Shown here: positions 58,815-61,617 of the stretch, piece after piece
Layout of the letters: the number at the start of each line of letters is the position of its first letter
Numbering within the stretch: the first letter of the stretch is position 1
DNA from: Treponema sp. UBA1226
GTDB taxonomy: Bacteria; Spirochaetota; Spirochaetia; Treponematales; Treponemataceae
Length of the DNA: 64,000 nucleotides
NCBI GenBank assembly: GCA_002309195.1
Contig: DBWY01000004.1
Location: 86,211-150,210 of the forward strand
Reading direction: 5' to 3'
Program-made: the position numbers and the translations under genes
Notes under the pieces: generated by a model
Databases searched by the model: none
Told to the model about the DNA's origin: nothing
What the model saw: the letters and a program-made list of their open reading frames with translations, nothing else

Positions 58815-59348
58815 TTATTTTCCGCCGTAATTAATTATCGTAGTAATTTTAGAAGGAGCAAGAACTTTTTCGTATTCAAGTTCAGGAAGCCCTATAACAC
58901 CAAAGAAATCAGAAACAGTTCCACCACCCTGCTCGATAAGATTTCTGGCTGCAACTAAAGTTCCACCGGTTGCAATCAAGTCATCTATAACAAGATAATT
59001 CTTTCCTTTTTCTACATCAGATTTATGAACTTCTACCTCGGCCATGCCGTATTCGAGAGCATATTTACAGGAATAAGTATCACCAGGAAGCTTACCTTTT
59101 TTTCTTATCAGAACAAGCGGAAGCCCAAGCTTTTCTGCAAAAGGAGCTGCAAACAAAAAGCCGCGTGACTCAACTGCAGCAACTGCATCAATTTTTGCGT
59201 CCCTGTAAATTTCTACCATTTTATCGATAACAAATTTAAAAGCCTCTGGCTTTACAAAGACACCGGTAATATCATAAAAAAGAATTCCAGGTTTTGGAAA
59301 ATCGTGAACACGACGGATAGCCCCGTCAAGCATTTCTAAGTCTGTCAT
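58815..59348 (-). CDS. apt: Adenine phosphoribosyltransferase
   Basis: 177 residues. The N-terminal FPKPGILFYDIT, ESRGFLFAAP, RKKGKLPG, and the PRPP loop VIDDLIATGGT are diagnostic. It salvages adenine to AMP. Promoter TTGACT (59386-59381), 17 bp, TAAAAT (59363-59358) lies nine bases before the ATG, so the leader is only two or three nucleotides. Own terminator downstream. Confidence 0.95.
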   Translation of the reverse strand: MTDLEMLDGAIRRVHDFPKPGILFYDITGVFVKPEAFKFVIDKMVEIYRDAKIDAVAAVESRGFLFAAPFAEKLGLPLVLIRKKGKLPGDTYSCKYALEYGMAEVEVHKSDVEKGKNYLVIDDLIATGGTLVAARNLIEQGGGTVSDFFGVIGLPELEYEKVLAPSKITTIINYGGK

Positions 59349-59436: not shown

Positions 59437-60378
59437 TTACACTTTTGCCATTGCGCTGCGTTTTTCTCTTACAGCTTTTAAAATTGAATTTAACTCAGAA
59501 GCATTTTCTGTTTCTATTGCCGTCTTTATCTTCGAAAGAGAATTTTCAAATGAGTTTATCATAGAAACAAGTTCTTCTTTGTTAAGTAAAAAAAGCTCGG
59601 TCCACAAAGGAGCATTTATAAGCGCAATACGGGTAAGGTCTTCGTAACTTCCACCACCGAATGCCGTAATTTTATCGTCTTCTGCACTGTCTACAAGACT
59701 TGAAGCAATTACATGACAAAGCTGGCTTGTAAATGCAATTTTATGATCGTGAGTTTTATAATCAGTTTCGATGATTCGCTTAATTCCGAGTTTTGTAATA
59801 AGCTCGCGCATTAAAGAAAGGTTTTCTTCGCTGTTTGATTTTTGAGGCATTAAAATATAATTTCGACCTTCAAAAACAGTTCCGCTTGACGCGCTGTATC
59901 CTTCTTTTTCGTTTCCTGCCATCGGATGTCCGAGAATAAAATCTACATCGTCACGAAGAAGCTTTGCACCGTCTTCAAAAACCTTCTGAGCTATCAATGT
60001 TTTTACGCCGGAGATGTCTGTTACAATTGAACCGGATTTAAAGGCGTTTTTATGTTCAGCAAGAAAGCGCACCGTAGCACGCGGATAAAGACAGATAAAA
60101 ACAAGGTCGCATTTTTCAAGCATTTCATCTGCCTCGCGGGGCGCAAACCATTCGTCAATGATATTTTCATCCTTTGCGTTTTTTAATGAATCAAGATTCA
60201 TGTCCATCGCAAGGATTTTTCCGCATGAGTGGTCACAAGAAAGACCGTCAAGGCCCTCGCCTATTTTAAAAACTTCTGTACTTAAAGAAAATACTTTCTG
60301 TTTAATTGCCTTTGCGATTGAACCGCCCATAAGACCAAGTCCGACAAACCCGAATGTCATATCATTAAGCTTTTTCAT
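59437..60378 (-). CDS. tyrA: Prephenate dehydrogenase
   Basis: 313 residues, AGGGG before ATG 60378. Rossmann motif GFVGLGLMGGSIA at the N-terminus, DISGVK, HPMAGNEKEGYSAS (the catalytic His region), and a helical C-terminal dimerisation part with FTSQLCHVIASSLV. It makes 4-hydroxyphenylpyruvate, the committed step to tyrosine. Cotranscribed with the DAHP synthase gene 16 bp upstream and so under the tyrosine attenuator. No ACT domain. The insert near residues 35-55 (GLDGLSCDHSCG) is unusual. Confidence 0.92.
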   Translation of the reverse strand: MKKLNDMTFGFVGLGLMGGSIAKAIKQKVFSLSTEVFKIGEGLDGLSCDHSCGKILAMDMNLDSLKNAKDENIIDEWFAPREADEMLEKCDLVFICLYPRATVRFLAEHKNAFKSGSIVTDISGVKTLIAQKVFEDGAKLLRDDVDFILGHPMAGNEKEGYSASSGTVFEGRNYILMPQKSNSEENLSLMRELITKLGIKRIIETDYKTHDHKIAFTSQLCHVIASSLVDSAEDDKITAFGGGSYEDLTRIALINAPLWTELFLLNKEELVSMINSFENSLSKIKTAIETENASELNSILKAVREKRSAMAKV

Positions 60379-60394: not shown

Positions 60395-61426
60395 TTAGCA
60401 AGTTCTTCCGTCTAAAGCTGCATATTTTGGAAGAATCTTCATCAAATCTGCAAACTCTTCAGGTCTTAAACTCTGTTCGCCATCGCACAAAGCTTTTTCC
60501 GGATTGTTGTGAACTTCGATGATAAGTCCGTCTGCCCCTGCGGCAACTGCAGCCTTTGCAAGTGTCGGAACCATCCAGCGAAGTCCCGAAGCATGACTCG
60601 GGTCAATGATGATAGGAAGGTGACTTTCTTTTTTCAAATACGGAATTATGCTGATATCCATACAGTTTCTTGTGTAATTATCAAATGTTCTAATTCCACG
60701 TTCGCAGAGAATTACGTTTTCGTTTCCGGAAGCCATGATGTATTCTGCGCTCATAAGTAATTCTTTTACAGTTGCACTCATTCCGCGTTTTAAAAGAATA
60801 GGCTTTTTAACTTTTCCCATTTCCTTTAAAAGATCAAAATTCTGCATGTTGCGTGCTCCAATCTGAATCAAATCTACATCATCAAAATACTTTAACTGTC
60901 TTATATCCATTAATTCTGTTACGATAGGAAGGCCTGTTTCTTTTTTTGCCGTAACAAGAAAATCAAGTCCTTTTTTTCCAAGTCCCTGGAACGAGTATGG
61001 ACTTGTGCGCGGCTTAAATGCACCGCCTCTTAAAAATCTGGCACCAGCTTTTTTAACAGCCTTTGCAATTTCTACAACCTGTTCTTCTGTTTCAACAGAA
61101 CAAGGTCCTGCAATTATTCCGATTGATTTTTTACCGAATGTACTGCCCTTTACGCCCGGCTGATCTGTTCCGACAGAAACAATTGTATCTTCCGGATGAA
61201 ATTTTCTGCTTGCCATTTTATATGGAGCAGATACACGCTGAACTACATCAACAACTTCATTTGCACATATTGCATTTGCATCGAGCGAAGAAGTATCACC
61301 TAAAAGTCCTACGATTGTAGTGTTTTCACCCTTTGAAAGATGAATTCCAAAGCCACGCTTTTTCCAGTTCTCAATGAACTCTTCTACTTTCTTTTCTTCC
61401 GCATTCTTTTTAAGAATAATAATCAT
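60395..61426 (-). CDS. aroF: DAHP synthase, type I-beta with N-terminal regulatory domain
   Basis: 343 residues; SD AGGAAGG before ATG 61426. Residues 1-70 form a ferredoxin-like/ACT-type regulatory domain as in the Thermotoga enzyme, which is feedback-inhibited by Tyr or Phe. The barrel shows IAGPCSVET, RGGAFKPRTSPYSFQG, QIGARNMQNF, LLKRGMSA, CERGIRTF and DPSHASG. It condenses PEP and erythrose-4-P at the start of the shikimate pathway. First structural gene behind the tyrosine leader at 61511-61582. Confidence 0.93.
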   Translation of the reverse strand: MIIILKKNAEEKKVEEFIENWKKRGFGIHLSKGENTTIVGLLGDTSSLDANAICANEVVDVVQRVSAPYKMASRKFHPEDTIVSVGTDQPGVKGSTFGKKSIGIIAGPCSVETEEQVVEIAKAVKKAGARFLRGGAFKPRTSPYSFQGLGKKGLDFLVTAKKETGLPIVTELMDIRQLKYFDDVDLIQIGARNMQNFDLLKEMGKVKKPILLKRGMSATVKELLMSAEYIMASGNENVILCERGIRTFDNYTRNCMDISIIPYLKKESHLPIIIDPSHASGLRWMVPTLAKAAVAAGADGLIIEVHNNPEKALCDGEQSLRPEEFADLMKILPKYAALDGRTC

Positions 61427-61447: not shown

Positions 61448-61479
61448 AAAAAAAAAGGAACCCTTTTACAGAGTTCCTT
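61448..61479 (-). terminator. Attenuator terminator before aroF
   Basis: Minus sense: AAGGAAC (61479-61473), loop, GTTCCTT (61461-61455), then a nine-base T tract ending at 61448. It lies between the leader peptide and aroF, so it is a conditional stop. Confidence 0.88.
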
Positions 61480-61570
61480 GTAATTTACAATTGTAATTTA
61501 TCAAAAAATATTACAGGCACTCTGCTACGCTTTTGTGAGAATAATAATAGTAATAATAGTATGCCTGCAA
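61476..61570 (-). promoter_or_regulatory. Alternative leader stems of the tyrosine attenuator
   Basis: Arm 1 TTGCAGGCA (61570-61562) pairs with arm 2 TGCCTGTAA (61519-61511), enclosing the tyrosine codons. Arm 2, as CCTGTAAT (61517-61510), can instead pair with arm 3 ATTACAAGG (61484-61476, one bulged A), whose end is part of the terminator's 5' arm. Ribosome stalling on Tyr codons would mask arm 1, free arm 2 to bind arm 3, and so prevent the terminator. Confidence 0.7.
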
Positions 61571-61582
61571 TGTTTTAATCAT
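61511..61582 (-). CDS. Tyrosine leader peptide (attenuation)
   Basis: 23-residue ORF, ATG 61582-61580 to TAA 61513-61511. Codons 8-14 (61561-61541) are seven consecutive tyrosine codons, a density expected by design only in an attenuation leader. It is followed by alternative stems and a terminator, then by aroF-tyrA, the pathway to tyrosine. The ATG lies 6 nt after the -10 box, so the peptide should be read from a leaderless 5' end. Confidence 0.9.
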   Translation of the reverse strand: MIKTLQAYYYYYYYSHKSVAECL

Positions 61583-61588
61583 AGGATG

Positions 61589-61617
61589 AATATAAACAAT
61601 TCCGCAAATAATGTCAA
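61589..61617 (-). promoter_or_regulatory. aroF-tyrA operon promoter
   Basis: Minus sense: TTGACA (61617-61612), 17-bp spacer, TATATT (61594-61589), then 6 nt to the leader-peptide ATG at 61582. Confidence 0.78.

Follow-up and report, generated by a model that had tools for sequence, protein, structure and literature searches.

The genes aroF and tyrA are adjacent on the minus strand of the window, i.e. the whole 64,000-nt stretch of DNA that was analysed, and the region upstream of them (61448..61617) contains a promoter, a leader ORF, switchable stems and a terminator. The sequence-only reading had claimed a promoter, a 23-codon leader with seven Tyr codons, a 1:2 stem, a 2:3 stem and a terminator with nine T before aroF-tyrA; all these parts are indeed present, on the minus strand, and the interval that it gave, 61448..61617, runs exactly from the promoter to the T tract. 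The features are:

62826-61789, minus strand: tsaD; the leader lies between this gene and aroF
61617-61612, minus strand: -35 box TTGACA, from the sequence
61594-61589, minus strand: -10 box TATATT, from the sequence, 6 bases before the leader ATG
61511..61582, minus strand: leader ORF of 23 codons plus stop, MIKTLQAYYYYYYYSHKSVAECL; ATG at 61582, stop codon at 61513-61511
61553..61579, minus strand: segment 1, predicted by the 138-nt fold to form with segment 2 the 1:2 stem that brackets the Tyr codons
61541..61561, minus strand: seven consecutive Tyr codons, the putative control codons, from the sequence
61516..61525, minus strand: core of segment 2, GCAGAGTGCC, at the end of the ORF just ahead of the stop codon
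61468..61484, minus strand: segment 3, i.e. AUUACA plus the terminator 5' arm up to CTCTGT, from the fold
61455..61479, minus strand: intrinsic terminator hairpin (3:4), -12.8 kcal/mol, from the sequence and the predicted fold
61448..61456, minus strand: terminator T tract of nine T, the first two inside the stem, from the sequence
60395..61426, minus strand: aroF, DAHP synthase, 343 aa (TIGR01361, 392.8 bits, cut-off 267.75)
59437..60378, minus strand: tyrA, prephenate dehydrogenase relative of 313 aa, separated from aroF by 16 nt
58815..59348, minus strand: apt, adenine phosphoribosyltransferase, the next same-strand gene after tyrA

The aroF gene is preceded by a Shine-Dalgarno-like AGGAAGG. 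The best profile score of the window tyrA, 161 bits, is under the curated cut-off of 414. Among the 33 loci for which sequence downstream of aroF is available, 29 have a tyrA match there. The leader promoter is sigma-70-like, with a 17-nt spacer and 11 of 12 consensus matches (61617-61589, minus strand). Its leader ATG stands 6 nt past the -10 box and has no Shine-Dalgarno site. As transcription normally begins ~7 bases past the -10 box, and only 6 bases separate this box from the ATG, the 5' end of the RNA is expected at or beside the leader ATG. The window leader mRNA is therefore probably leaderless, judging from the position of the promoter and the absent Shine-Dalgarno site, a feature that did not figure in the sequence-only reading. 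The Tyr codons of the leader form the sole run of at least five such codons in the window, both strands included.

The 138-nt leader folds at -31.5 kcal/mol (z -3.55; 0/200 shuffles equally stable), and the predicted structure displays the 1:2 stem around the Tyr codons, with its 3' side at 61500-61528, and the terminator at 61479-61455, followed by T. Segment 3 has two alternative predicted partners, segment 2 in the antiterminator or segment 4 in the terminator; the terminator 5' arm GGAACTCTG(T) is the pairing partner of GCAGAGTGCC in segment 2. When folded alone, the 2:3 hairpin reaches -16.2 kcal/mol (z -3.71; 1/200 shuffles equally stable), and the terminator -12.8. In the predicted antiterminator, positions 61525-61516 pair with 61477-61468, and 61515-61510 add pairs with bases from 61484 on; segment 2 thus reaches 61510, and AUUACA, immediately 5' of the terminator arm, is included. 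Between segments 2 and 3 there is a small extra hairpin, TTACAATTGTAA (window 61496-61485), with AUUACA as its 3' neighbour, and many relatives have TGTGTTTAC...GGTAATTAC at this position.

The window element very probably controls aroF-tyrA by ribosome-mediated transcription attenuation, with the charging of Tyr-tRNA as the signal that is read. RNA polymerase would begin transcription at the leader ATG or beside it, and a ribosome would load on the bare 5' end of the transcript. When Tyr-tRNA is scarce, the ribosome would halt on the seven Tyr codons and cover segment 1; the free segment 2 would then capture segment 3 ahead of the synthesis of segment 4, no terminator would form, and the presumed read-through would bring about the transcription of aroF-tyrA. 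When Tyr-tRNA is plentiful, the ribosome would reach the stop codon and cover segment 2, so that the 3:4 terminator ends transcription; if there is no translation, the 1:2 stem would form, followed by the terminator.

Among the best 80 of 174 loci kept from a contig search for aroF relatives, the closest belong to the MAGs Candidatus Treponema merdequi and scatequi (91% protein identity), which places the window in or close to this genus. In addition, 150 of 195 sampled genomes of one family have a DAHP synthase match. The orthologous aroF loci number 109, or 110 with the window, and at least 150 nt of upstream DNA is available for 108 of them. A leader score of at least 5 aromatic residues in 12, with ATG, GTG or TTG starts, was passed by 88/108 regions, from which L163 and L170 (neither terminator nor promoter) and L181 (GTG start, no promoter) were dropped by hand, leaving an accepted aromatic-rich leader ORF in 85/108 (Treponema-type genomes, window included). 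L125 and L177, with a score of 4, a promoter and a leader-like appearance, stand outside the 85. Among the 23 orthologues without an accepted leader, the upstream gene of L100, L120 and L160 ends within ~30 nt of aroF. A terminator below -10 kcal/mol lies at most 60 nt from the leader stop in 82/85 leaders. Conservation in relatives had been named beforehand as a check on the sequence-only reading, and the relatives do keep the aromatic codon run as well as a terminator whose 5' arm pairs with a stretch just past the run, the arm sequence varying between lineages.

Such ORFs are far less frequent in the controls. A second, separate scan with ATG starts only also scored 88/108 real regions, versus 174/2160 mononucleotide-shuffled ones with an equally aromatic-rich ORF, and the combination of an aromatic ORF with TTGAC at the leaderless distance occurs in 76/108 real regions versus 3/2160 shuffles. 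Five of the 108 reverse complements score as leaders, none of them with a promoter. Another control is the paralogous DAHP synthase, which is fused to prephenate dehydratase, as indicated by a PF00800 match within an open frame of 529-704 aa in 63/80 genomes; three of the fusion proteins were translated (L326-L328). None of the 24 upstream regions of this paralogue (L190-L213, hand-chosen among the matches listed) has an aromatic ATG ORF of leader score, and when TTG starts are allowed two of the 24 score, both without a promoter. When the translations are read by eye, the DNA before the fusion gene frequently resembles the last part of a homoserine dehydrogenase gene. At the codon level, pN/pS is 0.59 in the leader frame versus 1.17 and 0.69 for the two alternative frames (37 loci forming 66 non-independent pairs), which gives modest support to the presumed translation of the leader.

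The leaderless geometry is also shared, with TTGAC located 35-41 nt upstream of the leader start in 76/85 accepted leaders, including that of the window. The nine leaders counted as missing it still include L106, L112 and L168, for which the script chose an inner start; counted from their outer ATG, TTGAC has its usual spacing. A Shine-Dalgarno match of at least 4 bases precedes 6/85 leader starts versus 85/85 aroF starts.

The RNA elements differ among the relatives in a matched way. Their terminator 5' arms include the types GGGAACTCTGC, GGACTTCC, ACCTTCCGC, GAGGCTCC and ACCGCACGG, and segment 2 varies with the arm type, e.g. GCAGAGTT, GGAAGTCA, TGCGGAAGG, GGAGC and TTTGTGC. The predicted 2:3 pairing is stronger than in 200 dinucleotide shuffles at p<=0.05 in 59/85 leaders (median z -2.8) and no better than in the shuffles in 26/85, and it starts 8-16 nt past the last aromatic codon in 60/85. 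Since the register of the arms shifts from one arm class to another, covariation counting (an alignment with 48/76 references) was dropped in favour of a swap test. In 79 loci, i.e. the 85 without L104, L142 and L166 (terminator filter) and without L131, L146 and L147 (removed by hand for unusual long hairpins that pass this filter), segment 2 pairs at a mean of -12.4 kcal/mol with its own arm versus -8.8 with the arms of others, although there are few independent arms, 69/79 loci falling into one cluster linked by shared 7-mers. When one locus was taken from each of the 6 arm clusters, 33/20000 permutations attained the own-arm mean, which roughly equals the frequency of the identity permutation itself (1/720). 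These results bear on the idea that the hairpin is an insulator or a constitutive terminator and the Tyr run a product of chance or drift. Sites resembling terminators are frequent in DNA of this kind (0.9 expected in 1 kb here); however, the run, the promoter spacing, the terminator and the matched 2:3 pairing are conserved jointly, and we give this idea hardly any credence.

Masking of the ribosome footprint was modelled in 76 loci (the swap-test set minus L107, L108 and L133). The predicted fraction of nascent terminator arm held upstream has a median of 0.67 with the ribosome stalled versus 0.27 with the ribosome at the stop codon (0.78 versus 0.40 in the window); the stalled value is higher by >0.05 in 60/76 loci, and 7/76 show the opposite direction. 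At equilibrium, the terminator dominates the full transcript in every ribosome state (median 0.97; 0.66 for the stalled window), and thus the attenuation model requires co-transcriptional timing. With no ribosome, the nascent arm is held upstream at 0.20 in the window and at a median of 0.64 in the relatives, which indicates that segment 1 is not general among them. The latter value, at which a failed start would read as starvation in many relatives, together with the conserved leaderless geometry, would fit an explanation in which the leader has to be translated but what is sensed is translation in general, or leaderless initiation, instead of Tyr-tRNA. We regard this as quite improbable, because the conserved feature is a run of aromatic codons, some other operons carry His or Leu runs (see below), and the no-ribosome state of the window itself is low. 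By all the sequence evidence, the leader is a conserved attenuator.

The codons of the run differ among relatives. Over all 88 scored leaders, the cluster contains Tyr only in 9, Tyr and Trp in 8, Tyr and Phe in 43, and all three in 28. Strictly Tyr-only control codons are thus a minority state (9/88), the other 79/88 adding Phe and/or Trp. Trp occurs in the cluster in 34/80 genomes, of which 30 have a trpE match, as do 25/46 genomes without Trp (Fisher p 0.0014; trpE fragment matches scored as present); Phe occurs in 64/80 genomes, of which 56 were scored as having the fusion, as were 7/16 without Phe (p 0.00055). These statistics, for which the whole ORF was used in L125 and L177, ignore kinship, and missing contigs can hide genes, so we treat both associations, that of Trp codons with trpE and that of Phe codons with the fusion, as a lead. 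The varied runs also bear on a TnaC-like arrest peptide, in which the nascent aromatic chain, perhaps together with a free aromatic amino acid, would halt the ribosome and the speed of codon reading would go unsensed. Some groups of peptides also resemble each other outside the aromatic run, e.g. MKNTTRWAQKIN.SSLAYFYFSFYWFS and RGKTAAYSYYYWYYYS, and Ser often stands right after it. On the other hand, the sequence flanking the run varies between lineages; runs of Tyr, of Tyr with Trp, of Tyr with Phe and of all three occur, as codon sensing predicts; and arrest on plenty would free segment 2 and turn the biosynthetic genes on when they are unneeded. An arrest peptide therefore appears improbable compared with sensing of Tyr-tRNA.

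Aromatic leaders are not confined to spirochaetes. Of the same 80 best loci (out of 174), 69 are non-spirochaete with enough upstream DNA, and 55 of these 69 (mostly labelled Clostridia; within L008-L080) have an aromatic leader ORF of the same score, several of the 55 being expected by chance, as 8% of shuffled Treponema regions score. A terminator below -8 kcal/mol accompanies 52/55, and the 2:3 pairing is weaker by the measure used, reaching p<=0.05 in 23/52 (mononucleotide shuffles); a same-strand tyrA match was found in 50/72 non-spirochaete loci. As regards the start, 45 of the 55 have a Shine-Dalgarno match of at least 4, nine have TTGAC at the leaderless distance, and one has neither. 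The leaderless form of the putative leader is hence typical of the Treponema group, whereas non-spirochaete leaders mostly have a Shine-Dalgarno site, and candidate aromatic leaders occur widely upstream of this DAHP synthase family. The sequence-only reading, otherwise supported, needs correcting on two further points: strictly Tyr-only codons are uncommon among the relatives, and aromatic leaders before aroF also occur outside the spirochaetes. Non-spirochaete aroF was dropped as a negative control, as these loci carry aromatic leaders too; the paralogue, shuffles and reverse complements described above were used.

In Firmicutes, T-boxes and ligand-binding RNAs control genes of this kind, and a terminator preceding the gene would also be expected if such an RNA controlled it and the ORF were incidental. 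An Rfam scan, which is blind to any undescribed RNA family, gave no match at the gathering score in the window leader and 11 related loci, and none upstream of aroF in 20 loci from non-spirochaetes, whose sole two matches were T-boxes ~2 kb downstream of aroF. We consider a T-box or other ligand-binding RNA extremely unlikely here.

To our knowledge, little is known about amino-acid control in the spirochaete phylum. The trp and phe attenuators of Escherichia coli use Trp or Phe codons and Shine-Dalgarno starts, unlike the window leader. Attenuation is said to have been proposed for E. coli aroF-tyrA by Camakaris in 1980, and an aroR leader attenuator of Corynebacterium glutamicum was reportedly described by Neshat et al. 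in 2014. In the portions of the sources available, the E. coli trp and phe attenuators share with the window the control codons, the 1:2, 2:3 and 3:4 stems and the intrinsic terminator (PMC11802643), and the aroR leader peptide attenuator likewise precedes an aroF-containing operon; however, it has Phe-Tyr-Phe codons, responds to Phe and reportedly not to Tyr, and belongs to an actinobacterium, whereas the window leader has Tyr only and lies in a spirochaete (PMC11802643). The uORFC-13-1 motif, given in the part available as found only in Acholeplasma and environmental sequences, is also a predicted uORF with a promoter and a terminator directly before aroF; compared by description, the motif includes a ribosome site and one or more Phe codons, both absent from the window leader (PMC8632094). 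The transcript of the Sinorhizobium meliloti trpL attenuator (rnTrpL) begins at the leader ATG, as we infer for the window, but encodes a 14-residue Trp leader in an alphaproteobacterium (PMC7298713, in part). Attenuation of Tyr operons, as in the window, appears as database predictions or by citation: attenuators are predicted before tyrA operons, including Vibrio aroA-tyrA (PMC1173090), and a Shewanella aroF attenuator is listed as sensing Tyr-tRNA (PMC2659441); the rows covered of these two sources give no leader sequence and include no spirochaete. For spirochaetes, the Leptospira ilvB RNA motif, a riboswitch candidate, is in print. The literature matches listed, which do not extend to subscription papers (e.g. 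Lopatovskaya et al. 2010), contain neither a spirochaete leader-peptide attenuator for aromatic genes nor a Tyr-codon leader with its sequence. As far as our searches show, the type of mechanism is known, and the Tyr-only codons, the leaderless start and the lineage are new.

The window leader is probably a built-in tyrosine gauge, shared in altered forms by its relatives, and would provide a readable regulator of aromatic synthesis for spirochaetes. The dozens of natural variants (Tyr; Tyr+Trp; Tyr+Phe; all three) lend themselves to testing how the signal sensed by an attenuator changes, and the leaderless starts of 76/85 Treponema-type leaders, set against the Shine-Dalgarno sites of 45/55 non-spirochaete ones, to asking how the loading of ribosomes shapes attenuation.

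Similar leaders occur before some other operons of these genomes. A leaderless His-rich ORF precedes hisG in 2/14 genomes (L274 and L279; MNKAVLHLHIHHSHK..., MTEIKLHSHHHAF...), and a leaderless Leu-rich ORF precedes a LeuA-like gene in 8/28 loci (Treponema-type genomes), namely in 8/13 of the second LeuA-like group, L313-L325 (L313, L315, L316, L317, L320, L322, L324 and L325), and in 0/15 of the first. No Trp-rich leader was found before the 9 trpE genes scanned, a tenth match, a fragment, being left out; the LeuA-like and trpE matches in these genomes score below the family cut-offs. Furthermore, 27 of 60 upstream regions from other spirochaetes have a leaderless aromatic leader of a variant form that ends in Gly-Val-stop (L215, L216, L218, L220-L223, L228, L231, L233, L238, L254-L259, L261-L265, L267-L270 and L272), and all 27 precede DAHP synthase genes of AT-rich spirochaetes that seem to be Brachyspira-like or related. 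On balance, we lean slightly towards the view that spirochaetes generally control amino-acid operons by leaderless attenuation, with codons that track pathways (Trp with trpE, Phe with the fusion), His or Leu runs before hisG or the LeuA-like gene in some of the genomes and, in another group, the Gly-Val-stop hairpin variant with Tyr-rich and Phe-only leaders before the two DAHP synthases of a single genome; it is made slightly less likely by the Leu leaders, all of which belong to a single LeuA-like group out of two, and by the 2/14 count of His leaders.

For the Gly-Val-stop variant, 33 regions were hand-chosen for inspection of hairpins, and the later scan took in all 60. In 27/27 leaders (16 distinct sequences) a hairpin surrounds the stop codon, mostly with U-rich DNA after it, and the scan detected a terminator in few of these loci. 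Neither DAHP synthase copy of G229 has a Gly-Val-stop leader, while in G293, G302, G322 and G339 the first copy has none and the leader of the second copy has both Tyr and Phe. In seven genomes, the leader of the first DAHP synthase copy contains Tyr and Phe, and that of the second Phe without Tyr; in an eighth (G218), the leader of the second copy has one Tyr ahead of the run.
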